Assembly (NCBI GenBank): GCA_017935565.1
Contig: JAGBHK010000045.1
Location: 1 to 64,000 of the forward strand
Source: Lachnospiraceae bacterium
Lineage (GTDB): Bacteria; Bacillota; Clostridia; Lachnospirales; Lachnospiraceae
Direction: 5' to 3'
DNA length: 64,000 bases
In this document: positions 50,973 through 64,000 of the stretch, one piece after another
Layout: each line of letters begins with the position of its first letter
How positions within the stretch are numbered: the first letter of the stretch is position 1
Made by a program: the position numbers and the translations under genes
The notes under the pieces: model-generated
The model's database searches: none
What the model was told of the DNA's origin: nothing
Seen by the model: the letters and a program-made list of their open reading frames with translations, nothing else

Positions 50973-52220
50973 ATGGAAAAATTATACGATATGAAAGAAG
51001 AACCTGAAAAGTTAATATTGGTTGGCGTTTGTACAGGGGACGAGGAAGAAACATATGAATCCTTGGACGAATTGGAAGAACTTGTGGAAACTGCAGGTGG
51101 AATTACATTGGCAAAGGTTGTTCAAAACCGAGAGAAAATACACAATGTCACATATGTTGGTAAGGGCAAAATGGATGAAATTAGAGAACTTGCCGAAAAT
51201 ATGGAAGCAATAGGTATTGTGTGTGATGATGAATTATCGCCTGTACAAATTAAAAATTTAGAGGATGCATTAAATGTTAAGATAATGGATAGAACACTTG
51301 TTATCTTAGATATATTTGCAAAACGTGCAAAGACGTCAGAAGGTAAAATACAGGTCGAATTAGCACAACTTAAGTATCGTTCATCTAGACTTGTAGGTCT
51401 TAGAAGTTCATTGTCAAGACTTGGTGGTGGTATTGGTACTAGAGGTCCAGGTGAAAAGAAACTTGAGATTGACAGACGTCTTATTAATGATAGAATTGCC
51501 GCACTTAGGAAAGAAGTAAATGAATTGGAATCACAAAGAGATTTTGCAAGAAATCAAAGAAGTAAGAATCCTATATTTACAATCGCTATAGTGGGATATA
51601 CAAATGCAGGAAAGTCGACATTATTAAATACTCTTACAGATGCAAATGTTTTATCTGAAGACAAGTTATTTGCAACGCTTGACCCAGTTACAAGAAGCTA
51701 CAAATTAGACAGTGGCCAAGAAGTTTTATTTACAGATACAGTTGGATTTATTCGTAAATTGCCACATAATCTTATCGATGCATTTAAATCAACATTGGAA
51801 GAAGCAAAATATGCGGATGTTATTTTACATGTGGCAGACTCATCAAATCCTCATTTAGATACACACATAGATATTGTATATAAAACATTAAAGGATTTAG
51901 GAGCAGTAGATAAGCCTGTTATTACATTGTTTAATAAAATGGATAAATTTACTGGGGACAAATCTGTTTTAAAAGATGAGAAAGCAGATTATGTGATTTA
52001 TGGTTCTGTTCGTAATGAGGAAGGTTTAGATGAACTAGAAGATGCTATTGAAGATGTTATTAATAAGCAGAATGTCTATGTGGAAAAGGTTATTAGTTAT
52101 GCTGACGCTGGTAAAATTCAGTTGATAAGAAAATATGGGCAGCTGTTAAGCGAGGAATATGTGGCTGAAGGAATCGAAATTAAGGCATATGTACCAAATG
52201 AGATTTTCGGCAGAATATAA
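50973..52220 (+). CDS. hflX: GTPase HflX
   Basis: 415 residues. An N-terminal HflX domain ('YVGKGKMDEI', 'VCDDELSPVQIKNLEDAL') and the glycine-rich 'GGGIGTRGPGEKKLE' lead to a GTPase domain: G1 'GYTNAGKST' (about 207), G3 'DTVGF', G4 'NKMD'. Ribosome-splitting factor that rescues stalled 70S under stress. The ATG at 50973 is preceded by CGGAGAAAAA. Likely cotranscribed with the response regulator. Confidence 0.95.
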   Translation: MEKLYDMKEEPEKLILVGVCTGDEEETYESLDELEELVETAGGITLAKVVQNREKIHNVTYVGKGKMDEIRELAENMEAIGIVCDDELSPVQIKNLEDALNVKIMDRTLVILDIFAKRAKTSEGKIQVELAQLKYRSSRLVGLRSSLSRLGGGIGTRGPGEKKLEIDRRLINDRIAALRKEVNELESQRDFARNQRSKNPIFTIAIVGYTNAGKSTLLNTLTDANVLSEDKLFATLDPVTRSYKLDSGQEVLFTDTVGFIRKLPHNLIDAFKSTLEEAKYADVILHVADSSNPHLDTHIDIVYKTLKDLGAVDKPVITLFNKMDKFTGDKSVLKDEKADYVIYGSVRNEEGLDELEDAIEDVINKQNVYVEKVISYADAGKIQLIRKYGQLLSEEYVAEGIEIKAYVPNEIFGRI

Positions 52221-52456: not shown

Positions 52457-53902
52457 ATGGTTTTTTCAAGTATTACATTTTTATTTTATTTTTTACCGAT
52501 TACATTAATCGGATATTTTATTTTGTCATTTTCAAGAAGATTGCAAAATATATGGTTACTTATTGTAAGTTTAATATTCTATGCATGGGGCGAGCCAGTA
52601 TATGTCATTATTATGATAGGTTCAATATTTGTAAACTGGTTGATGGCATTGATTATACAAGTATGTAAGAAAAAAGAAAAACTAAGAAAAACATTTTTGA
52701 TAATAACGGTAATAGCTAATCTAGGAACATTGGGAGTATTTAAATATACAAATTTTATTATCGAAATAATTAATGGTATTGCAGGCAAAGATTTGATAAC
52801 TCAGACAAATATAGCATTGCCTATAGGAATTTCCTTTTTTACATTCCAGGCTATGTCATATGTAATTGATGTATATAAAGAAAAAGCAGTAGCGCAGAAA
52901 AATTTATTGAACATAGGTTTATACATATCATTTTTCCCTCAGTTAGTTGCGGGTCCTATTGTTAAATATACTACAATAGAAGAACAAATAACTAAGAGAA
53001 AAGTAAACTTCGACGGATTAGCAGATGGCGTTTGTCGTTTTGTAGAAGGTTTATTAAAGAAAATATTGTTAGCGAATAATTTAGCTATTGTAGCGGACCA
53101 TATTTTTGAGTTGACAAGTTATGGTAGCACGGTTGTTGCAGTTCCGGTAATGCTTGCATGGTTAGGTACATTCGCATTTACATTACAGTTATATTACGAC
53201 TTTAGTGCTTACTCGGATATGGCGATAGGTTTAGGGCGAATGTTTGGATTTACATTACCTGAAAACTTTAGATTCCCATTTGTAAGTAAATCGATAAAAG
53301 AGTTTATGGCAAGATGGCATATGACACTTTCGGCATGGTTTACACAATATGTGTATAAACCTTTAGGTGGTGCAAAAGGAGAAAATCAAGATAAAATGGT
53401 AAGAAACCTCTTCATCGTGTGGTTGCTTACAGGTATATGGCATGGTGCTTCATGGAATTTCATATGGTGGGGAATGTTCTTCTTTATATTTATATTATTA
53501 GAGAATATATTGAGATTTGACCAGATTGAAGGGCATAATATTTTAAAGCATGTATATGTTATTTTTATTGTTATGATTGCGATGGTAATATTTAAATGTG
53601 AAAATACAGCTCAGTTGATTTTATATATGAAAGATATGTTTGGATTAGGTCATAATGGTTTTTATAGTCCGACGGTGGTGATGTTTATAAAAGAGTATGG
53701 TATCGTTTTTATTGCGGCTATATTATGTGCGTTACCATTAAGAGATTTCTTTGAAAGTAAACTGGAGAATTGTAGAAATGGTAAAGTGATTAAGGGCATA
53801 TATCATATATGTTATATTGTGGGCATGTTTGCTCTAATTGTTTTTTCAGTAGCAGTGTTGGCAAAGGGTGGATATAATCCATTCATCTATTTTAACTTTT
53901 AA
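52457..53902 (+). CDS. MBOAT-family O-acyltransferase (AlgI/DltB-like)
   Basis: 481 residues with about eleven membrane helices. MBOAT signatures: 'LPIGISFFTFQAMSYVIDVYK' (about 122-142), 'SDMAIGLGRMFGFTLPENF', 'FMARWHMTLSAWFTQYVYKPLGG' and the catalytic His in 'LTGIWHGASWNFIWWG' (about 325-340). Moves acyl groups across the membrane onto a surface polymer. GAGAGGA precedes the ATG at 52457; an ATG at 52436 lacks an SD. First gene of an operon that runs to 62195 with gaps mostly under 35 nt. Confidence 0.94.
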   Translation: MVFSSITFLFYFLPITLIGYFILSFSRRLQNIWLLIVSLIFYAWGEPVYVIIMIGSIFVNWLMALIIQVCKKKEKLRKTFLIITVIANLGTLGVFKYTNFIIEIINGIAGKDLITQTNIALPIGISFFTFQAMSYVIDVYKEKAVAQKNLLNIGLYISFFPQLVAGPIVKYTTIEEQITKRKVNFDGLADGVCRFVEGLLKKILLANNLAIVADHIFELTSYGSTVVAVPVMLAWLGTFAFTLQLYYDFSAYSDMAIGLGRMFGFTLPENFRFPFVSKSIKEFMARWHMTLSAWFTQYVYKPLGGAKGENQDKMVRNLFIVWLLTGIWHGASWNFIWWGMFFFIFILLENILRFDQIEGHNILKHVYVIFIVMIAMVIFKCENTAQLILYMKDMFGLGHNGFYSPTVVMFIKEYGIVFIAAILCALPLRDFFESKLENCRNGKVIKGIYHICYIVGMFALIVFSVAVLAKGGYNPFIYFNF

Positions 53903-53916
53903 TAGGAGAGTGAAAG

Positions 53917-55176
53917 ATGAAAACGAAGATATACAAAAAAATATTTGCAATCCTTTTCCTTGTAGTGCTAATAGGATTTTCAGCAATTAATTTTAAGTCT
54001 GAAATAGGAACTGTTATATATTTTGTGAAAAACATAGATAAACCTGATAATATGAAAGAGTTAGGTAATATTACAGCGCAAGTTGATGTAGTGTTGACAG
54101 AAAACATTGTTGGAAAATATGGTTGGTACGAATTCTATGGTTGGGTACATAAATCCCTCGGAAAAAATGAAGAAAATAATTTTATGTACGTAAAAGATAA
54201 GGATGATATATTGTACTCGGGAAATTTTTGGAATACATCACAAACATCGCCATTAAATATTGCGATGAGAATCAGAAAATTGCAGGATGCAGTTGCTGAC
54301 AAGGGTACTAAGGTTGTATGTATCATGTATCCAACCAAGTACAATGAAGAATGGTCCAATGGATATTATGGTATTCCATACAATGATTTAAATGAATATG
54401 GTGATGATGTGTTATCATTTTTGCGCCATTACAATATTGATTACATTGATTTTAGGGATGTGTTTATAGAAAATAATATGACGGCAAAAGATATTTTCTT
54501 TAGAACGGACCATCATTGGACAATTCCAACAGCATTTTTTGCTACAGGAGTGGTTTTAGAGCATTTGGAAACAGAATATAATGATTATCTAGATCCGGAT
54601 GGATATTGGAGAGATTTGGATAATTATATAGTTGAAGAATATGAAGATGTATATTTAGGTTCGCAAGGCCGTGAAACAGGCATTGTATACGCAGGTGGGT
54701 TAGATGATTTTACACTAATTTATCCAAAAGAAAAAATAAATTATTCATATACTTATGTGTATTCATCAAATGACACGGTATATACGAGAAAAGGTGATAC
54801 TTTAAAAACATTAGTTGATAAATCAATGTTAGAAACTGAAAATATTTATGAGTCCGATGTATACGAAAGTTATATGAATTGTGTATGCAGACGTGATGAA
54901 ATAATAAATGAAAATTTAGAGACAGGAAAGAAAATTTTCTTTATTAGAGATTCATATTCATCGCCACTAGCAACCTTTATGGCTCCGATGTGTAAAGAAA
55001 TTGATATGAAATGGTCTGTTAGAGTATCAGGGAATGAAATTGAAGAGGCTGTATTGAACGATACATATGATTATATTTTTGTAGCGTTAGCGATAGATAA
55101 TTTTACTGATACTGGAGTTCCGTTCTTTGCAGATGAGGTAAATGAAGAACTTGAAGATTTATTGGTAGTACCATAA
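53917..55176 (+). CDS. AlgJ/AlgX/DltD-like SGNH protein (DHHW family)
   Basis: 419 residues: one N-terminal membrane helix (about 7-26), then an extracytoplasmic domain. The D-H-H-W signature ('FFRTDHHWTIPTAFF', about 188-202) and the late Ser in 'KIFFIRDSYSSP' (about 345) match the alginate O-acetylation proteins AlgJ/AlgX. It should finish the acyl transfer started by the MBOAT protein 15 nt upstream, outside the membrane. GGAGAG precedes the ATG. Confidence 0.88.
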   Translation: MKTKIYKKIFAILFLVVLIGFSAINFKSEIGTVIYFVKNIDKPDNMKELGNITAQVDVVLTENIVGKYGWYEFYGWVHKSLGKNEENNFMYVKDKDDILYSGNFWNTSQTSPLNIAMRIRKLQDAVADKGTKVVCIMYPTKYNEEWSNGYYGIPYNDLNEYGDDVLSFLRHYNIDYIDFRDVFIENNMTAKDIFFRTDHHWTIPTAFFATGVVLEHLETEYNDYLDPDGYWRDLDNYIVEEYEDVYLGSQGRETGIVYAGGLDDFTLIYPKEKINYSYTYVYSSNDTVYTRKGDTLKTLVDKSMLETENIYESDVYESYMNCVCRRDEIINENLETGKKIFFIRDSYSSPLATFMAPMCKEIDMKWSVRVSGNEIEEAVLNDTYDYIFVALAIDNFTDTGVPFFADEVNEELEDLLVVP

Positions 55177-55187
55177 AGGAGGTAGAA

Positions 55188-55886
55188 ATGGCAGCTAATC
55201 TTGATGTAAGTAGAGAAGAAAAAAAGTATGTTCTAACCTATATGGAAGCTGAAAAACTTTATTTAAAATTGAAACAGATTTTACCTGGAGATGAAGTTAA
55301 TGGATACAATTCCTATATGGTACGATCACTTTATTTTGATTCATATTATAATGATGATTATTTTGACAAAGTGGCAGGCATTAAAGACAGAAAAAAGATA
55401 CGTGTGAGAATATATGATGTTTCAGCCGAAAAAGCAAAATTAGAAGTAAAACAAAAAGAAGGAAATATGCAACGTAAACGTTCTATTTCCATAACAAGAA
55501 AAGAAGCAGAAATGCTTTGCAAGGGAGATTATGAGTTCTTGTTAAACAAGGATGATAAACTTGCAGAAGATATTTATTATATAATGCATAAAGAAACATA
55601 TAGACCAAAATGCATTGTAGAATATAAAAGACGAGCTTTTGCAGTTCCTACCAATAATATTCGAATAACATTTGATAGCGAGATTGCAGTTTCAGAAGGT
55701 AATTTGAATATTTTTGATAATTCAAAAGCTATGTTAGTTCCAATTGAAAGCAGAAATAAAGTTATTTTGGAAGTAAAGTATAACAATTTCTTGCTTAGTT
55801 ATATAAAGGATGCATTGCAATTGTGTGATGCACCGCAAGAATCATATAGTAAATATACAACAGGAAGATATTGGGGCTTGTCATAA
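55188..55886 (+). CDS. VTC-domain polyphosphate polymerase-like protein
   Basis: 232 residues forming a CYTH/VTC tunnel fold: 'REEKKYVLTYMEAEKLYLKL', 'YMVRSLYFDSYYNDDYFDKV', basic strands 'KKIRVRIYD' and 'KLEVKQKEGNMQRKRS', 'YKRRAFAVPTNNIRITFD', and 'VILEVKYNNFL'. Basic and acidic tunnel residues of VTC4 appear conserved, so it may handle triphosphate or polyphosphate. AAAGGAGG precedes the ATG. It is followed by DUF4956 and CotH genes, a trio often seen together in bacteria; its task in polysaccharide synthesis is not known. Confidence 0.85.
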   Translation: MAANLDVSREEKKYVLTYMEAEKLYLKLKQILPGDEVNGYNSYMVRSLYFDSYYNDDYFDKVAGIKDRKKIRVRIYDVSAEKAKLEVKQKEGNMQRKRSISITRKEAEMLCKGDYEFLLNKDDKLAEDIYYIMHKETYRPKCIVEYKRRAFAVPTNNIRITFDSEIAVSEGNLNIFDNSKAMLVPIESRNKVILEVKYNNFLLSYIKDALQLCDAPQESYSKYTTGRYWGLS

Positions 55887-55917
55887 GGAAGCCCGCAAAT
55901 ATAAGGAGGAAAAACAA

Positions 55918-56601
55918 ATGAAAGAAGAATTATATAAGTATATTGTTAGTCAGAGTGGAGCATTATCAGTAAAAGAAATAATTGTTTGCTTTATGGCAGC
56001 GGTAGTAATTGGAGCAATTATTTTTGTTTCATACCGTTTTTCGCATACAGCAAGTGTGTATAGTGCAAAATTTAATGTATCATTAATTATGCTTGTATTA
56101 GTAACAACATTGGTTATGAGTGTAATTGGAAATAATGTTGCATTATCATTAGGTATGGTTGGTGCTCTTTCAATCGTTCGTTTCCGTACAGCCATTAAAG
56201 ATCCACGTGATACTGCATACATTTTCTGGTGTGTTGCAGCTGGTATTTGTTGCGGAATTGGTGATTATATGATAGCTGGAATTGGTACAGGTGTAATCTT
56301 TATCGTTATGCTTTTATTTGGAAATATACGTAATAATGACCGTTACTTGTTAATCGTAAGAGGTAATGGAGAAGTAGAAAATGTTGAAAGTACAATTGAT
56401 AAATACTTCAATAACAAAGCATTTTTCCGTGTATGTAATGAAGATAGAAATATGACAGAATATATTTATGAAGTATCTTACAATTGTTTGCAGAAGGCTA
56501 AAAAGAATGCTGGTGATAAGAATATTAAATCAGTATTATTTGAGATTGATGGAGTTGAAGCAGTTAATTTAGTATGTCAAAATGATGAAATTACAAGGTA
56601 G
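55918..56601 (+). CDS. DUF4956 membrane protein
   Basis: 227 residues: helices at about 22-42, 50-80, 102-120 and 122-142, then a soluble C-terminal domain of about 85 residues. 'ALSLGMVGALSIVRFRTAIKDPRDTAYIFWCVAAGI' is the family hallmark. AGGAGGAAAAA precedes the ATG; a longer frame from 55810 lies inside the VTC gene. DUF4956 proteins usually accompany VTC-type polymerases and CotH proteins, as here. Confidence 0.88.
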   Translation: MKEELYKYIVSQSGALSVKEIIVCFMAAVVIGAIIFVSYRFSHTASVYSAKFNVSLIMLVLVTTLVMSVIGNNVALSLGMVGALSIVRFRTAIKDPRDTAYIFWCVAAGICCGIGDYMIAGIGTGVIFIVMLLFGNIRNNDRYLLIVRGNGEVENVESTIDKYFNNKAFFRVCNEDRNMTEYIYEVSYNCLQKAKKNAGDKNIKSVLFEIDGVEAVNLVCQNDEITR

Positions 56602-56610
56602 TGTGTTTAT

Positions 56611-58221
56611 ATGAAAAATAAGCTAACAATTATTATAGCCGTTGTGGCTATTTTGACGGTGTTCTGCATTGTTTTTTCTAAGATGGGAACTGAGGTTTCT
56701 ACGTCTGTAAGGACATATCAACATGAAGAAAATAAACATGTAGATACGACGGTTGGAATTACTGAAATTCCTGAAGATGGGATTGTAGATAATACGTTTG
56801 AAACGCATCTTCCATTGGTTGTTCTTGAAGCAGATATGGATTCTATTATTGATATATATACTGTGTCTGAAGGTGACAAGCCAAGAGATTATGCTGATCC
56901 AAATGTTACTAATCCATGGGTTGACATGAAAATTTCAATTTATGATAGTGATACAGGAGTAAATAAGGTAACAGATGAACCAGCATTATACAGTGATGGA
57001 TTGATAAAACTTAGAGGTTTCAGTTCTAGAAGATATGAAAAAAGACAGTATGGTATTAAACTTTTAGATGAAACTGGAGCAGAAAGAGAAGAATCAATAC
57101 TTGGTATGGAAGCTGATGAAGATTGGGTGCTCGGTGCAAATACATTGGATGCAACATATCTTCGTAATTATGTAGCATATAATATTGGTGGACAAATATT
57201 CCCATATACACCAGAAACAAGGTTTTGTGAAGTACTTGTAAAAAATGGTGATAATTATGAATATTTGGGATTGTTTTTGTTTTCAGAAACAGTTAAGCAG
57301 TCAGCGGGTAGAGTAGACATTGCTGACTTTGATGAAAATGAAAATCGTTTAAGTTATATTATTTGTCGAGATAGAAAGGATTTGACTAAGACAACACTTT
57401 CTACTTGGGCATCGGAATCTCAGATTTGTTATGGATGGTTTTCCTTTAAGTATCCAAAGGAAGAGTTGTTGACTGATCCTGTTGTAAGTAAAATCGAAGA
57501 CCAGATATCTGAAATTGAAAAAGTTTTATATTCAGATGATTATGAAACATTTTTAATATATCCAGAGTACATAAATGTTGATTCGTTTGTTGATTATTTT
57601 GTTGTAAATGAATTCTTTGGTAACTATGATGCTGGTGATAACTCCACATATTATTATCAGGATTCATCTCATGATTTCTCAATGGGACCATTGTGGGATT
57701 ATGATGGTTGTTGGGATAATTATGTTGCTGAAGTTTCCAATGAAGACTGTTTAGTATATCCAGAACAGCCATGGTTTGAAAAACTAGTTCAAGACCCAAG
57801 TTTTAATGCATTGGTAGTCGAGAGATATAAGGAACTTAGAAGAACGATTTTTTCTACAGAATATGTTGAGGAAGTAATCGACGAAACAGCGGCATATTTG
57901 GGGAATGCTGTTTTGAGGGAGAGAAGCAGATGGAGAGCTACATATGAAGAACAGCATTTGCTTGATGTTGTTGAAGATGGTAGAGGATATATAATTGACC
58001 GTAACAGAGATACTTATGAAGAAGAAATTATTCGTGTAAAAGACATAATGAGAGCACATGCTGAATGGATGGACGAATATATGGATGATTATCTTGCGAA
58101 TTATGTAGTGGAAAGAGAAGCTGGCTACGATGTGGAAGCTAAATCAGTAGCAGCGGTGATTTTTGTTGTAACATTTTTTATTGTTATAGTATTGGTTAAT
58201 CGAAAGATTAATGGCTTGTAG
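56611..58221 (+). CDS. CotH-family kinase-like protein, membrane-anchored
   Basis: 536 residues: an N-terminal helix (about 4-24), an extracytoplasmic CotH domain and a C-terminal helix (about 510-530). Hallmarks: 'LRGFSSRRYEKRQYGIKLLD', 'WVLGANTLDATYLRNYVAYNI' with the ATP-binding region, 'FVDYFVVNEFFGNYDAGDNSTYYY' and the metal-binding 'GPLWDYDGCWDN'. CotH of Bacillus spores is an atypical protein kinase; others may modify surface glycans or proteins. Weak AAGG upstream. Overlaps the start region of the next gene. Confidence 0.88.
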   Translation: MKNKLTIIIAVVAILTVFCIVFSKMGTEVSTSVRTYQHEENKHVDTTVGITEIPEDGIVDNTFETHLPLVVLEADMDSIIDIYTVSEGDKPRDYADPNVTNPWVDMKISIYDSDTGVNKVTDEPALYSDGLIKLRGFSSRRYEKRQYGIKLLDETGAEREESILGMEADEDWVLGANTLDATYLRNYVAYNIGGQIFPYTPETRFCEVLVKNGDNYEYLGLFLFSETVKQSAGRVDIADFDENENRLSYIICRDRKDLTKTTLSTWASESQICYGWFSFKYPKEELLTDPVVSKIEDQISEIEKVLYSDDYETFLIYPEYINVDSFVDYFVVNEFFGNYDAGDNSTYYYQDSSHDFSMGPLWDYDGCWDNYVAEVSNEDCLVYPEQPWFEKLVQDPSFNALVVERYKELRRTIFSTEYVEEVIDETAAYLGNAVLRERSRWRATYEEQHLLDVVEDGRGYIIDRNRDTYEEEIIRVKDIMRAHAEWMDEYMDDYLANYVVEREAGYDVEAKSVAAVIFVVTFFIVIVLVNRKINGL

Positions 58222-58237
58222 GAACAAGGAGACAAAA

Positions 58238-60529
58238 ATGGGAAAACATAAGATTAAAAAAATATCATTTTCAAAGAGCCTGGCAATGATAACTGTAATA
58301 GGACTTCTCCTTTATATTGGTTGGAGATTAATTTTTACAGTACCAGATCATGAAAAATATGGTTGGGTTGCGTCAATTGCTGGTATATGCTTATTGATTG
58401 CTGAAACTATTTCAGTTATTGAAGCTTTGATTCAATGTTGGCAATTAAGTAGACAATATGAGCCGCCTATGCCGGTTATTCCTGAAGAATGGTATCCGGA
58501 TGTTGATGTTATGATAGCAACTCACAATGAAGAAGAGGATTTGCTGTTTAAGACGGTAAATGCGTGTACTAGAATGAAATATCCCGATAAATCAAAGGTT
58601 CATATTCATATATGTGATGATACAAATCGTCCAGAAATTAAAATGCTTGCACAAAAATTTGGTGTAAATTATTTTGGATTAAGCGATAATAAATTGGCTA
58701 AAGCTGGAAATTTAAATAATGCTATAGCAAAGACGAGCGCGCCATTGATTGTAACATTTGATGCGGACATGATTCCAAATAGTGAGTTTTTACTTGAAAC
58801 TGTACCGTACTTCTTTTTACCGAAAATGAAGCAGGATGAAAACGGTGATTGGATTCCTAAAAAAGAATTTGAGATTGATGAAGATGAGAAGATTGGTTTT
58901 ATCCAAACACCTCAGACATTCTATAATCCGGATTTGTTTCAATATAATTTATATTCTGAAAAACAGATACCTAATGAACAGGATTACTTTTTCCGTCAGG
59001 TTAATATTGGACGTAATCGTTCAAATGCACCTATTTATGCGGGTTCCAATACTGTTATTTCAAGAGAAGCGTTGGAATTAGTTGGTGGTATTCGTACAGG
59101 TACTATTACAGAAGATTTTGAAACAGGCTTGATGATTCAAGCAGAAGGTTATAAATGTTATGCTGTTGATAAATTATTAGCAAAAGGTATGGCGCCAATT
59201 ACAATTAAGAGTTTAATAAAACAGAGAGAACGTTGGGGTAGAGGTTGTATTTATTCCCTCAGAAGAGTGCATATTCTTTTAAATCCAAAGTTCGATTTTA
59301 AACTTAAATGGGCGTATTTCTCATGTAGATTATACTGGGGAAGTTTTACAAGAAGACTTATTTATATTATGGCACCAATATTCTTTGCGGTGTTTAGCAT
59401 TCCTGTAGTAACTACTGGCTTGGGTGGAGTTTTATGTGTATGGTTGCCATCGTATATACTGTATGCAATTACATTGAAAAAGATTTCTGGCGATATACGA
59501 AATACTAGATGGAGTAATATTATTGATACAGCTATTTTCCCATATATGTTATTACCTTTATGGGCAGAAAGTTTGTTTATTCGTAAAAAAGATTTTCATG
59601 TTACGAATAAGTCAAGAGTGCAATCTGAAAGTGGTGTTTACTTAGCGTTACCGCATATAGTACTTTTTGTATTATCAGTTATTTCGATAATTGTAATGAT
59701 AAAAGATTTGATAATGTATAGTGCTTTTGGTTCAATTGTTGTTATTTATTGGCTTTTGATTAATTCATCAAGTCTTCTTATGTCAATATTCTTTATGCTT
59801 GGAAGAAAGAGTGAGAGAATGACAGAACGTTTTCAGGTTAGTCTTCCTATAGAGGTTAGAAATGGCGAAAATGTTTATGATGGTACTATGGTAGATATTT
59901 CTGAAAATGGATTAGCATTTATATTAGATTCAGCAGTATACTTCCCATATAATGAGGAGGACCGTATTGAATGTAGTATTAAGTATAATGAGTATTTTGC
60001 TACGGTTTTAGGAAAAATTGTTACTGTAAAGAAAGAATCTAATAGAGGCTATTGGAAATATTGTTTGTCAGTAAATGAAATGGATGAAGAAACAAAGAAA
60101 GAGTATTTTCAGATTATTTATGACAGAGTTCATACGCTTCCAAAAAAACTTAGTTTAAATTCAAGTTATTTTGGTGATATTGCAAAAAATGTAGCAAGAA
60201 GAACAGAAACAGGTGAAGCTTCTCGTAGACATACGGCAAGAATTGTAGTAAATGAAAAGTTTGAAACAGAGAGTGGTCAAACCGTAATAGTTGAAAACTT
60301 TAATTTTGAATTTGTTCGTTTATCGGCTCTTGAAGGGGAAGAATTGCCAGATAGATTAACTTTATTTAGTGGTACAGATTATGAAATGAAATGTGAAGTT
60401 CATTACAAGGAAACTAGAATTTTTGCAATTAATAATTGGAAGGAACTTGTGGAAAATATAGAGTTTCTTAAAATTGTTGATAAGTGGAACAGAGGTTCAA
60501 GGCGAAATAGAACAAGAGGTGAAAAGTAA
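58238..60529 (+). CDS. Processive GT2 glycosyltransferase with C-terminal PilZ domain (cellulose-synthase-like)
   Basis: 763 residues. Two helices (about 13-60), a cytosolic GT-A domain, four or more helices (about 360-510), then PilZ. Catalytic motifs: Asp in 'HICDDTNRPE' (about 125), D-x-D in 'TFDADM' (about 175), T-E-D (about 291) and Q-R-E-R-W (about 329-333). PilZ motifs R-M-T-E-R (about 526) and D-I-S-E-N-G (about 553) predict c-di-GMP activation as in BcsA. It should polymerise a beta-linked glucan and extrude it. A region of about 140 residues after PilZ is unassigned. The ATG at 58238 has AAGGAG upstream. Confidence 0.92.
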   Translation: MGKHKIKKISFSKSLAMITVIGLLLYIGWRLIFTVPDHEKYGWVASIAGICLLIAETISVIEALIQCWQLSRQYEPPMPVIPEEWYPDVDVMIATHNEEEDLLFKTVNACTRMKYPDKSKVHIHICDDTNRPEIKMLAQKFGVNYFGLSDNKLAKAGNLNNAIAKTSAPLIVTFDADMIPNSEFLLETVPYFFLPKMKQDENGDWIPKKEFEIDEDEKIGFIQTPQTFYNPDLFQYNLYSEKQIPNEQDYFFRQVNIGRNRSNAPIYAGSNTVISREALELVGGIRTGTITEDFETGLMIQAEGYKCYAVDKLLAKGMAPITIKSLIKQRERWGRGCIYSLRRVHILLNPKFDFKLKWAYFSCRLYWGSFTRRLIYIMAPIFFAVFSIPVVTTGLGGVLCVWLPSYILYAITLKKISGDIRNTRWSNIIDTAIFPYMLLPLWAESLFIRKKDFHVTNKSRVQSESGVYLALPHIVLFVLSVISIIVMIKDLIMYSAFGSIVVIYWLLINSSSLLMSIFFMLGRKSERMTERFQVSLPIEVRNGENVYDGTMVDISENGLAFILDSAVYFPYNEEDRIECSIKYNEYFATVLGKIVTVKKESNRGYWKYCLSVNEMDEETKKEYFQIIYDRVHTLPKKLSLNSSYFGDIAKNVARRTETGEASRRHTARIVVNEKFETESGQTVIVENFNFEFVRLSALEGEELPDRLTLFSGTDYEMKCEVHYKETRIFAINNWKELVENIEFLKIVDKWNRGSRRNRTRGEK

Positions 60530-60531
60530 TT

Positions 60532-60774
60532 ATGGATATTTTAAATGAGGTAATTGAAATAGTAAAAGATGTTATGGAAACAGATGAAGTAGATGCAGAT
60601 ACATTAATGGAAGATGATTTAGAAATAGCATCGTTGGAATTTTATGAGTTATTAAGTAGACTTGAAAAGAAATTTAGTATTAAGATGCCAGAAAAAGTGT
60701 TAAGCAATGTTGAGACTGTAGATGATATTGCGTATGAAGTTGAAACAATTATGAAGAAAAAAGGTTTACTATAA
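60532..60774 (+). CDS. Acyl carrier protein (DltC-like position)
   Basis: 80 residues, acidic, helical. The phosphopantetheine site is Ser in 'DLEIASLEFYELLSRLEKKF' (about 34); the usual Asp before Ser is Ala here. 'IKMPEKVLSNVETVDDIAYEV' continues the ACP fold. AGAGGTGA inside the previous gene is its SD. It is followed in overlap by an AMP-ligase, so the pair probably activates and carries an acyl or aminoacyl group for the MBOAT protein. Confidence 0.88.
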   Translation: MDILNEVIEIVKDVMETDEVDADTLMEDDLEIASLEFYELLSRLEKKFSIKMPEKVLSNVETVDDIAYEVETIMKKKGLL

Positions 60775-62195
60775 TGACAATATTAAAATTATTAGAAGAG
60801 TATGCAAAATTACATGAAGATAATCCATCAATTGGATATACGGAATCTGGAAGAGAATATATTGCTAGTGCAAGACAATTTTACACGGATGTAAAAAAAG
60901 CAGAGAATTATTTTAGAAAAGGGGCAAATGGGGAAAAGAAAAGAATAGGAATTGTTGGAGAAAATTCTTATTCATATCTGGTGATTTTGTTTGGCATTAT
61001 TTGTTCGGAAAATATTGCAGTTCCTATTAATCAAACATATGCTGATGAAATGTTGTGCCAGTTTTTTAAAAAGACTTGCTTAGCAGAGGCGATATGTGAT
61101 GAAGCATACGCAGATAGCCTTTTGGAGATGGATACTGGTATTAAAATTTACTCCATGGAAGAATGTTTTGCAGAAATTATGAAAGAAGATGAAAAGCCAT
61201 ACATCGATAGTGATGCAAAGTCATCAGATATCATACTTATGTTGTTATCATCAGGAACAAGTGGAGTAAGTAAAGTTGTACAATTAACAAATGAGAATTT
61301 GTCAACATTTCCAATGCGAGTACAAGAATATGATAGAGGCAAAGCAAAAAAGAGTTTATTATTATTGCCATTTTATCATATAAGTGGAATCATTCCTTTG
61401 TTAGAAGATATGATGTTAGGTAATTTAATTTATCTTAGTAATGCTAAATATTTGATAAGAGACTTGGAACAATATGATATTGAAAAATTAATTCTAGTTC
61501 CAGCGATGCTTAAAAAAGTGTTGGGTCAATGTGAAAAAAATGAAGCATTTAAAAATCATTGTTCTAACATTAAAGAGGCATTGTGTTTGGGTGCGCCAAT
61601 GGATGATGCACTAATTGAAAAAATGAAAGCGAATTCCATTGAGCCAAAGACATATTATGGAATGACTGAAACTACAGGAACAGTATCAGGTGAAGGAAAA
61701 TATAAATTTGGTGCCTGTGGAAAAATCTCACCATTCTGCCAAGTGAAGATAGAAGATGGTGAAATTCTTGTAAAAGGACCAAACGTAATGGTAGGATACT
61801 TTAATGATGAGGAAGAAACATCAAAAGTACTTAAAAATGGTTGGATTCATACAGGAGATTTAGGGGAAATAGATGAAGAGGGATATTTATTTGTAAGGGG
61901 AAGAAAAAAGAATATTATTATTCTTTCAAATGGTGAAAATGTATGTCCAGAAGAATTGGAAAACAGACTTTATATGTGCCAATACATTGAAGAGTGTAAG
62001 GTGTTTGGTGATGAGGAAGTCAAAGCTGAAATTTTCTGTGGAAAACATAAAAATATGGACGAAATAAAGCAGAATGTAAAAGATTATGTTAGAAGCATGA
62101 ATCGTACATTACCACCATCTCATAAAATTAAAGATATAGTGTTTAACGATAATCCATTAAAAAAGAATTCAATGGGGAAAATATCAAGAATATAA
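60774..62195 (+). CDS. AMP-forming acyl/aminoacyl ligase (DltA-like position)
   Basis: 473 residues of the ANL superfamily. P-loop 'LLSSGTSGVSKVVQLTNEN' (about 160-178), 'PFYHISGIIPLLE', 'YYGMTETTGTVSGEG' (about 295), 'HTGDLGEIDEEGYLFVRGRKKNIII' (about 360-385) and the terminal Lys in 'NPLKKNSMGKISRI'. The start overlaps the carrier gene stop (TAATG), coupling the two. Expected to load the carrier protein with an acyl group via an adenylate. The pocket is not diagnostic for D-alanine versus acetate or fatty acid. Last gene of the operon. Confidence 0.9.
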   Translation: MTILKLLEEYAKLHEDNPSIGYTESGREYIASARQFYTDVKKAENYFRKGANGEKKRIGIVGENSYSYLVILFGIICSENIAVPINQTYADEMLCQFFKKTCLAEAICDEAYADSLLEMDTGIKIYSMEECFAEIMKEDEKPYIDSDAKSSDIILMLLSSGTSGVSKVVQLTNENLSTFPMRVQEYDRGKAKKSLLLLPFYHISGIIPLLEDMMLGNLIYLSNAKYLIRDLEQYDIEKLILVPAMLKKVLGQCEKNEAFKNHCSNIKEALCLGAPMDDALIEKMKANSIEPKTYYGMTETTGTVSGEGKYKFGACGKISPFCQVKIEDGEILVKGPNVMVGYFNDEEETSKVLKNGWIHTGDLGEIDEEGYLFVRGRKKNIIILSNGENVCPEELENRLYMCQYIEECKVFGDEEVKAEIFCGKHKNMDEIKQNVKDYVRSMNRTLPPSHKIKDIVFNDNPLKKNSMGKISRI

Positions 62196-62224
62196 TTGAC
62201 ATTCTTTTTGTTTTCACATAAAAT
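62196..62224 (+). promoter_or_regulatory. Promoter of the riboswitch-GH16 unit
   Basis: TTGACA (62196-62201), 17-bp spacer, TAAAAT (62219-62224), beginning right after the ligase stop. A second -10-like TATAAT overlaps at 62224-62229. Confidence 0.7.
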
Positions 62225-62254: not shown

Positions 62255-62345
62255 GAAAAGGCAAACTTATCGAAAGGTAGGGACGCAAAGCCAAGGGTCT
62301 TAAGTGTATACTATGACAGCCGGTTATCGAAAGCAATTATTATCG
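62255..62345 (+). promoter_or_regulatory. Cyclic di-GMP-I riboswitch (GEMM-I)
   Basis: Contains the GEMM-I signature elements in order: AAAAGGCAAAC, the GAAA tetraloop stem (TTATC-GAAA-GGTA), GGGACGCAAAGCCA, a GGGTCTTAAG loop and TATGACAGCCGGTTAT. The conserved tetraloop and its receptor are recognisable. It is followed by an intrinsic terminator and a secreted GH16 gene, so it should control that gene transcriptionally in response to c-di-GMP. Confidence 0.93.
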
Positions 62346-62353
62346 TGACTTAT

Positions 62354-62383
62354 AGACCTTGATTTATTATCAAGGTCTTTTTG
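62354..62383 (+). terminator. Terminator of the c-di-GMP riboswitch
   Basis: 10-bp stem (62354-62363 with 62369-62378), 5-nt loop, run of five or more U, about 75 nt before the GH16 start. Expression-platform position. Confidence 0.88.
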
Positions 62384-62456: not shown

Positions 62457-64000
62457 ATGAGACAAAAAGTATTAAGAAAGGCAGTTGCAGGGTTGCTAAC
62501 ATTTAGTATGTTACCATTGCAATTGTTTGCAAGCGGTGGTAATGTTATTGCAGCTGAAACAGAAAGTGTTGATTCTTCAAAATGGAAACTTGTTTGGTCG
62601 GATGAGTTTGATGGTGATTCATTAGATGAGAGTAAATGGATGTATAGATTAGGCTCTACATATAATGATGAGCAACAGTATTATAAGAAAGATAATGTTT
62701 CTGTAAGTGATGGAACGTTAAAAATAACAGCGAAGAGTGAAGAAACTAATGGTTATCCATACACCTCGGGAAGAATAAGTACTGGTGGTAATGGGACTGC
62801 TTTGTTTGCAACGAAATACGGACGAATTGAAGCAAAAATTAAATTGCCTAAGGGCACTGGGTTGTGGCCTGCATTTTGGATGATGCCAAAGGATAATGTG
62901 TACGGAAGTTGGCCATTGTCTGGAGAAATAGACATTATGGAAGCAAGAGGTCGTTTAACAGGTGAAGTTAACGGTGGAATTCATTTTGGACAATCAGGTT
63001 CGAACAAGAATAGTTTAAGTGACACGTATACTTTTGCAGATGGAAGTGATATAACAGATTATCATGTATATGCTATTGAATGGAGTGAAAATGAAATTGT
63101 ATGGTTTGTAGATGATAATGAGTTTTACAGAACAAGTAACTGGTATACTATGAATGATGAGGGTGTTGTAGCAGAATATCCCGCTCCTTTTGACCAAGAA
63201 TTTTATATCATTCTTAATCTTGCGGTTGGTGGAACTTATGATAACTATAAAGAACCATCAGAAAGCGAATTGCCAGCAACCATGGAGGTTGATTATGTAA
63301 GAGTATACCATGATGTCGATGGTTACAATGAAGAAAATATTACAATGCCTAAAGGAACTAGAGATGATGAAGCTATGGCAGCAACACCAGTTTTTGAGAA
63401 CGGTAATCTGCTGTCTGATATTAATTTTGAAACAATAAATGAAAGTATTTTATATGCTAATAATACTGATATATCCTCTCATAATTGGTATTTGCTAACT
63501 AACAAATATTATTTGGGTGATGCAAATACAACAAAGAGTGTAATTGATGGAAATACATTTTTAAATATACATATACTTGATCCTGGAACGCAAGCTTATT
63601 CAGTTATGCTTGCACAATTACTTCCTTTGGCAAAAGGTTATGTGTATAAAGTAAGTTTCGATGCATATGGTTTGGATTCAGACAAAACAATAAAGGTAAA
63701 AGCATACGGCGAGGAACTTTACAGTAGTTCATATAAAGCTAAGTTGACGAATGAATTGCAACATTTTGAGTTTTCATTTCTTATGGAGAATGAAACCGAT
63801 ATGAATGCTCATTTAGAATTTGATGTGGGACAGTATGAAGGTGATGTTAGTATTGGCAATGTAAGAGTAGAAGTGCTTAATACATACGTTGAGTCGGAAA
63901 AAGCGTTAGAAAATGATGATATGACAGAAGTTGAAGAAGAAACAGAAGAAACAGAAGAAACAGAAGTATCTACAGAAGGTGTTATAGAAGAAACAGAAAC
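62457..64000 (+). CDS. Secreted GH16 beta-glucanase, 3' end outside the window
   Basis: At least 514 residues; runs off the right edge. Signal peptide at 1-32 (basic start, hydrophobic core, cleavage near 'ASGG' or 'IAAE'). GH16 domain at about 40-285: 'WKLVWSDEFDGDSLDESKW', catalytic E-I-D-I-M-E (Glu157 nucleophile, Asp159, Glu162 acid/base) and 'WPAFWMMP', typical of laminarinase/beta-1,3(4)-glucanases. Residues about 310-480 look like a CBM4_9-type beta-sandwich. A Glu/Thr-rich repetitive linker starts near 490. GGAGGG precedes the ATG. Under a c-di-GMP riboswitch and next to a glucan synthase operon. Confidence 0.92.
   Translation, partial: MRQKVLRKAVAGLLTFSMLPLQLFASGGNVIAAETESVDSSKWKLVWSDEFDGDSLDESKWMYRLGSTYNDEQQYYKKDNVSVSDGTLKITAKSEETNGYPYTSGRISTGGNGTALFATKYGRIEAKIKLPKGTGLWPAFWMMPKDNVYGSWPLSGEIDIMEARGRLTGEVNGGIHFGQSGSNKNSLSDTYTFADGSDITDYHVYAIEWSENEIVWFVDDNEFYRTSNWYTMNDEGVVAEYPAPFDQEFYIILNLAVGGTYDNYKEPSESELPATMEVDYVRVYHDVDGYNEENITMPKGTRDDEAMAATPVFENGNLLSDINFETINESILYANNTDISSHNWYLLTNKYYLGDANTTKSVIDGNTFLNIHILDPGTQAYSVMLAQLLPLAKGYVYKVSFDAYGLDSDKTIKVKAYGEELYSSSYKAKLTNELQHFEFSFLMENETDMNAHLEFDVGQYEGDVSIGNVRVEVLNTYVESEKALENDDMTEVEEETEETEETEVSTEGVIEETE

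Follow-up and report, generated by a model that had tools for sequence, protein, structure and literature searches.

The window analysed here is the first 64,000 nucleotides of contig JAGBHK010000045.1 from a Lachnospiraceae bacterium (assembly GCA_017935565.1; 81% complete, 45 contigs). Positions 52457-62195 of its plus strand are occupied by a single compact run of eight co-directional genes, which is predicted to encode a glucan synthase activated by cyclic diguanylate (c-di-GMP) and a carrier-fed acylation line dedicated to it. The gene order given by Pfam matches is MBOAT, DHHW/SGNH, VTC, DUF4956, CotH, GT2-PilZ, acyl carrier protein (ACP) and AMP-forming ligase, and with the DUF4956 start chosen here all intergenic gaps are 31 nt or less (Table 1). 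The GT2 and ACP genes are separated by 2 nt, and ACP and ligase overlap by 1 nt at stop and start (TAATG). A previous sequence-only reading had named five of these proteins (the MBOAT, the SGNH protein, the carrier, the ligase and the PilZ glycosyltransferase) as products of one operon. All five are present on the plus strand where it had placed them, with Pfam matches over the cut-offs, and the tight run bears out the single operon; VTC, DUF4956 and CotH, as well as a riboswitch and a GH16 gene further downstream, were absent from that reading.

In the pathway that we propose, the ligase would adenylate a carboxylic acid that lacks an alpha-amino group and transfer it to the phosphopantetheine group on the dedicated ACP. 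From this carrier the MBOAT would accept the acyl group on the cytoplasmic side and hand it on to the tyrosine in its C-terminal FIYFNF, and the serine of the DHHW/SGNH protein would receive it and esterify the glucan leaving the PilZ-gated GT2. Here we infer the acyl donor, the direction of flow and the acceptor. As a whole, carrier-fed acylation of a c-di-GMP-controlled glucan is a moderately probable reading of the sequence evidence.

Delivery of the acyl group by the carrier is the best reading because the linkage is conserved in a second genus and because the two cases are sister rows in three gene trees. In genome G382, which belongs to another genus, the order is MBOAT-SGNH-VTC-DUF4956-CotH-GT2-GH5-PF00144-ACP-ligase. 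Identity between the window and G382 is 40-43% for the ligase, 50% for the ACP, 52% for GT2 and 60% for the MBOAT, and the G382 ligase is the best match after the window itself (E 9e-109) in a search of 397 genomes of the family. The two are sisters in the trees of GT2 (100/99), MBOAT (98/100) and ligase (97 in the Shimodaira-Hasegawa-like approximate likelihood ratio test), as if these genes had been co-inherited; the tree programs flagged long branches in all three trees. Given the same set in another genus, the presence of ACP and ligase genes in the operon goes beyond chance neighbourhood, and the earlier proposal of a carrier and a ligase dedicated to it is upheld by this linkage and by the trees. 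The PF00144 protein of G382, a beta-lactamase-fold protein, may be an esterase by analogy with DltE, the esterase of a dlt operon, which has the same fold (PMC10241514). Directly 3' of the G382 operon (L108 1-13896) lies a gene for a repeat protein of 4632 aa or more with Flg_new and FctA-like domains, a possible matrix adhesin.

The carrier-ligase set is rare. Draws of 200 and 397 genomes of the family yielded 34 GT2 loci (19 and 15) besides those of the window and G382; weak matches in one draw, less significant than E 1e-69, were left out. Within 9 kb of these 34 loci, MBOAT was found at 16, SGNH at 15 and CotH at 10, and MBOAT together with SGNH occurs without a nearby ACP-ligase pair at 15. 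None of the 34 has both ACP and ligase within 9 kb, an absence that is weak at the several loci cut by contig ends (e.g. L042, L050, L052 and L155); L048 has a single ACP match, near a carboxylase-like gene. One of seven genomes in the genus of G382, namely G382 itself, has a ligase match at 1e-50. Among the eight genomes of the window's genus, the best ligase matches outside the window are 31-39% identical, and the top three lie in frames of approximately 1000-1200 aa. At 1e-75, wider searches detected the window alone among 398 genomes of the phylum, and the window, G153 and G946 among 295 genomes of the order; G382 lay outside both draws. A ligase scan of the genome contigs turned up distant ligases at three loci (28-43% identity in the best segments); none of these loci has a GT2 or MBOAT match. 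At L037, a distant ligase adjoins a heparan-glucosaminide-acetyltransferase-like protein.

The MBOAT retains the catalytic His, and its C-terminal FIYFNF fits the acyl-shuttle motif FxYxxF; in PatA, the tyrosine of this motif is the residue that becomes acylated (PMC12148441). In the SGNH protein, DHHW and the RDSYS serine are both present, as in 16 of its 17 aligned relatives; the lone deviant of the 18, from L041, has DHYW instead of DHHW and Ala in place of the catalytic Ser. The window pair thus has the features of the PatAB class on both sides: the MBOAT combines FxYxxF with the catalytic His, and the SGNH protein DHHW with the Ser. The MBOAT scores 146.7 bits against the DltB equivalog TIGR04091, far under its cut-off of 375.

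Close to the catalytic centre, the MBOATs of the window and G382 share EFM(A/T)RWH...WF(T/S)QYVYKPLGG, where the other 16 MBOATs mostly have (E/D)FW(R/K)RWH...WF(R/K)(D/E)YVY(F/I)PLGG. When shared departures that change the residue class were counted for the 153 pairs among 18 MBOATs, the carrier-linked pair ranked highest with seven (next highest, four). Four of the seven fall within residues 285-306 beside His288, and this cluster of four in 25 residues is the densest (next, two). The class-change scan was made after the segment had been noticed and was not blind, and L142 (weak MBOAT match of 149 bits, no SGNH match), which has a long branch in the MBOAT tree, was left out of the change scans. 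The changed segment aligns with W285-I306 of DltB (6BUG). These changes beside the first catalytic His, which do not run towards DltB, are a lead to a carrier-adapted MBOAT, and no proof.

The ligase search matched 72 of the 397 family genomes, and 29 loci from among the best matches (L079-L107, G382 included) were inspected. An ACP match lies in the fetched flank of 26 of the 29, and an AT3 match in five. The nearest ligases after that of G382 are two from G223 (97 and 93), one of which belongs to a polysaccharide cluster that also encodes a polysaccharide flippase, a GT4, a GGDEF protein and an AT3 protein, the ACP following right after AT3 and approximately 6 kb before the ligase. ACP-ligase modules also stand beside AT3 in L113 (8277-12765), L114 (1475-4304) and L111 (5171-13751), one of these being a polysaccharide cluster with GGDEF. 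The ligase clade therefore looks like a clade of acyl-ACP ligases serving various transferases. Tentatively, it is possible that a plug-in module of acyl-ACP ligase and ACP feeds a non-acetyl group to different membrane acyltransferases, MBOAT here and AT3 in relatives. The glucan produced when c-di-GMP is high would then bear a non-acetyl, non-amino acyl ester (a medium- or long-chain or hydroxy acid) and form an amphiphilic cellulose-like matrix, and the donor face of the MBOAT would have been re-tuned from CoA to a carrier, unlike that of DltB.

Several observations weigh against carrier-fed acylation. The operon is known from two cases in one clade, and for the ligase tree the program warned that long branches meet. 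The second G223 ligase (L110) lies by spoIVA with no adjoining ACP match. ACP-ligase pairs occur with other partners: in L117 (3008-6147) they stand with a condensation-domain protein (PF00668, 119 bits), and the gene order is similar in L084-L087, L092 and L094-L105, the partner having been scanned in L117 only. The G382 ligase matches an AA-adenyl model (101 bits, cut-off 317) among its best 25, behind the fatty-acyl and MenE models. In the MBOAT, strictly conserved columns changed number four in the carrier-linked pair and zero to four in seven control pairs, and the long shared stem branch of the pair (0.56) in itself gives rise to shared changes. DltB, although carrier-fed, keeps W285, R297 and D298 as the carrier-free relatives do, where the pair has changed (M284, T296 and Q297). 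Nor has the MRLV of DltB been gained; the pair has KPLG, with window K301 at DltB M302. DltC presumably docks near M302-V305 of DltB. Finally, MBOATs with and without a carrier gene have the same C-terminus and catalytic His, so the window MBOAT could still use acyl-CoA.

The foremost rival is plain O-acetylation of the kind put forward for CcsHI, in which acetyl-CoA supplies the MBOAT and the ACP-ligase pair is a hitch-hiker that serves elsewhere, in membrane lipid or for another acyltransferase. The 15 loci with MBOAT and SGNH and no carrier, the unvarying catalytic motifs, the other partners of related ACP-ligase pairs and the direction of the MBOAT changes, which is not DltB-ward, all suit it. 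However, a hitch-hiker does not readily fit ACP and ligase genes that close the operon in both genera and, in the window, are coupled in their spacing, or shared MBOAT changes that gather beside His288. Moreover, no other acyltransferase family is among the Pfam matches of the window run or of the two extra G382 genes. We hold acetyl-CoA supply to be unlikely.

The top NCBIfam models for the ligase are long-chain-fatty-acid--CoA ligase (191 bits) and MenE (184 bits), both below the cut-offs, and models of luciferase, 4-coumarate ligase and malonyl/oxalyl ligases match too, so chain length is not fixed by the family score. The catalytic Lys469 is retained. By alignment, Gly296 stands at the column of the Trp that we take to close the pocket of acetyl-CoA synthetases, which weakens an acetate-specific reading of the enzyme. 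The carrier matches fatty-acid ACP models, all under the cut-offs, and Ser34 is conserved in five aligned carriers. An AlphaFold model of the ligase from a three-row alignment has a mean predicted local distance difference test score of 54.9. With the long-chain and MenE models nearest, a carrier of fatty-acid type and Gly296 in the pocket, the product might be lipid-like, a long-chain fatty acyl group that tethers or hydrophobises the glucan instead of an acetyl-like decoration. Against this, family scores do not dictate chain length and the MBOAT/SGNH pairs named in one paper move acetyl or D-Ala (PMC12148441), and we consider a lipid product improbable.

Amino acids fare worse. Ile203 of the window ligase (Ile also in G382) aligns with the Asp of the DltA-like protein of the same genome and of three kin from the same genus (FDVS, FDAC); the Asp of FDxS that marks amino-acid ligases is thus missing. 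We take this Asp to bind the amino group, and 4-coumarate ligases presumably have Ile there. DltA and AA-adenyl models are not among the best 25 of the 95 families that match the window ligase. The four DltA-like rows of the genus group in a clade apart (100), with the window ligase outside; a fifth row of the genus, labelled DltA-like through a weak match (L072, 58 bits), falls elsewhere in the tree, and L112_1, a cut open reading frame from another cluster whose best match is a DltA-like protein, also lacks the Asp. A DltC model is absent from the 11 models listed for the window ACP, and the G382 ACP scores 20 bits against DltC (cut-off 68). On motif, family-model and tree evidence together amino-acid activation is rejected, and by these comparisons the enzyme is classed as an acyl, not an amino-acid, ligase. 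A true Dlt-type system making a D-alanyl or other aminoacyl glucan is thus very improbable: the four activities do resemble dltBDCA in outline, and the MBOAT does match the DltB model (147 bits, cut-off 375), but the ligase has no Asp, is not of DltA or AA-adenyl type and lies outside the DltA-like clade, the carrier is of fatty-acid-ACP type, and the genome has a separate Dlt-like operon. What stood of the Dlt-like set in the sequence-only reading is that carrier, ligase, MBOAT and SGNH protein occur together; ligase and carrier are not of DltA and DltC type, and its suggestion of D-alanine or another amino acid was not supported.

The separate Dlt-like operon is on contig C22 (L124 7032-12552). 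Its DltA-like ligase scores 341 bits against AA-adenyl, over the cut-off, and 327 and 313 bits against DltA models, under theirs. The operon also has a DltC-like carrier (30 bits, cut-off 68), an MBOAT frame in two pieces in this assembly, a protein put as the SGNH partner from position alone (no Pfam match) and a pyridoxal-phosphate decarboxylase of the ornithine/diaminopimelate type, which suggests an unusual amino acid or amine. A third MBOAT set lies on C21 (L123 7404-11511), with a short DltA-like AMP-ligase of 425 aa and no adjoining carrier match.

GT2 scores 333 bits against the cellulose synthase model CelA TIGR03030, under the cut-off of 699, and matches BcsA structures at E 1e-50 to 1e-58; the family models do not separate cellulose from mixed-linkage glucan as its product. 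It has DAD, TED, QRERW and an FHVTNK gating loop, and its PilZ domain has RMTER and DISENG, in agreement with the motifs Q(Q/R)xRW, FxVTxK, RxxxR and D/NxSxxG as defined for RiGT2 (PMC10374906). The gating-loop and PilZ motifs would make GT2 a c-di-GMP-activated synthase. The VTC, DUF4956 and CotH genes are a known exopolysaccharide accessory module, since CotH, polyphosphate polymerase and DUF4956 genes stand beside Gram-positive pel clusters (PMC7112168).

A secreted GH16 glucanase is encoded just downstream of the operon, behind a c-di-GMP-I riboswitch. The GH16 domain matches the laminarinase 3iln (E 9e-48), and the CBM4-like domain matches 1gui of laminarinase 16A (E 9e-6). Laminarinases are the best matches in the PDB, and the catalytic motif is EIDIME, whose beta-bulge we take to be informative of the GH16 type. 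From these two domains it is possible that the glucan contains beta-1,3 links; the enzyme might equally serve food glucans instead. The promoter-like site after the ligase stop is the best of 71 such sites in 12 kb, and shuffled sequence gives 66. In the nascent RNA up to 62366, bases 62294-62300 of the aptamer are bound by the 5' arm of the terminator (p 0.79-1.0). Folding with an enforced aptamer gives the terminator (p 0.98); the free full-length RNA prefers the terminator too (0.98), and switching would therefore be kinetic. The layout is of OFF type in these folding models, as the ligand would block formation of the antiterminator, although class I switches are not always OFF, Bc1 and Vc1 being reported as ON (PMC11218506). 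The c-di-GMP that would turn the synthase on probably turns the glucanase off. None of seven related loci scanned has an RF01051 match at the gathering score.

Table 1. Coordinates and evidence for the predicted features of the acylation operon and the adjoining glucanase region
Feature	Position	Strand	Evidence
MBOAT acyltransferase, CcsH/PatA/AlgI-like, fused C-terminal FIYFNF	52457..53902	+	PF03062 102 bits; His329 and motif aligned
DHHW/SGNH transferase, AlgX/AlgJ-like, N-terminal hydrophobic stretch	53917..55176	+	PF16822 (ALGX) 44.5 bits; DHHW at residue 198, RDSYS at 344
VTC, polyphosphate-polymerase-like, exopolysaccharide accessory module	55188..55886	+	PF09359 136 bits
DUF4956 membrane protein, accessory module	55918..56601	+	PF16316 47.6 bits; start picked after VTC stop
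CotH kinase-like protein, accessory module	56611..58221	+	PF08757 197 bits
BcsA-like GT2 glucan synthase with C-terminal PilZ	58211..60529 (alternative start 58238)	+	Glyco_trans_2_3 70 bits; PilZ PF07238 49.6 bits
ACP, phosphopantetheine Ser34 in EIASLEF	60532..60774	+	PP-binding PF00550 31.4 bits; TIGR00517 35 bits (cut-off 70); alignment
AMP-forming acyl (not aminoacyl) ligase, read as acyl-ACP ligase; Ile203, catalytic Lys469	60774..62195	+	PF00501 137 bits; NCBIfam; motif alignment; tree
Promoter-like site TTGACA-17-TAAAAT, just 3' of ligase stop	62196..62224	+	11/12 consensus matches
c-di-GMP-I riboswitch aptamer, GAAA tetraloop	62250..62331	+	RF01051 75 bits (gathering cut-off 35)
Intrinsic terminator of riboswitch	62354..62378	+	5' arm can pair with aptamer 62294-62300
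Secreted GH16 laminarinase-type glucanase, CBM4-like domain	62457..64000, runs past window end	+	PF00722 79 bits; start from ribosome-binding site

The MBOAT start at 52457 is preferred on the aligned MVFSS and a ribosome-binding site, gagagga. The upstream neighbour is hflX, which ends at 52220; a hairpin and T-run 3' of it were spotted by eye and are absent from the output of the terminator scan. Elsewhere in the window, a cobalamin riboswitch (99.9 bits) lies at 1521-1726 on the minus strand.

Among the nearest known systems is ccsZABHI (PMC7710045), which likewise has a BcsA-like GT2-PilZ, an MBOAT and a DHHW protein and for which glucan O-acetylation is proposed. The ccs genes include the GH5 hydrolase CcsZ and CcsB, whereas here there are VTC-DUF4956-CotH, ACP, ligase and a nearby GH16; no GH5 is among the Pfam-matched genes of 52457-62195, and the G382 operon has one. 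The ACP and ligase are what is new relative to the ccsHI pair as described there, the main text of that paper having no occurrence of 'acyl carrier'. The (1,3;1,4)-beta-glucan synthase RiGT2/Cgs of Romboutsia ilealis shares the GT2 and PilZ motifs, and 'MBOAT' does not appear in the main text of its paper (PMC10374906). The accessory genes are contiguous as in pel clusters, but are attached to a GT2-PilZ glucan synthase and not to pelDEADAFG (PMC7112168).

With PatAB, WssHI and AlgIJ the operon shares the fused FxYxxF shuttle, the catalytic His and the SGNH partner (PMC12148441; PMC10302187), and it differs in combining the fused shuttle with a carrier and ligase. According to a 2025 paper, MBOAT/SGNH pathways other than Dlt have no carrier, evidently owing to their use of acyl-CoA (PMC12148441); the window operon, with ACP and ligase genes in two genera and a presumed role for them in the pathway, would be an exception to this rule. 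Carrier delivery has so far been reported where amino acids are attached to teichoic acids, and titles and abstract openings, with subscription papers mostly outside reach, gave no case of it on cellulose-like polymers. The dltXABCD system has a ligase, a carrier, an MBOAT, an SGNH protein and a shuttle tyrosine (PMC12148441), but here ligase and carrier are of acyl/ACP type, the MBOAT carries the shuttle as a fusion, and a glucan is presumed to be the acceptor in place of teichoic acid. By its ligase, its carrier and its DltB score, the operon is classed outside the Dlt family. The natural MBOAT pairs with and without a carrier gene make the question of the donor testable. Should the acyl group be other than acetyl, the product would be a chemically novel bacterial glucan whose synthesis responds to c-di-GMP, with a glucanase under a likely riboswitch next to it. 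One signal that turns the synthase on and the glucanase off would be a neat pairing. The operon would work like a hybrid, acting on a glucan through a fused-shuttle MBOAT and a DHHW protein as ccsHI does, and supplied by a ligase and a carrier as in Dlt.

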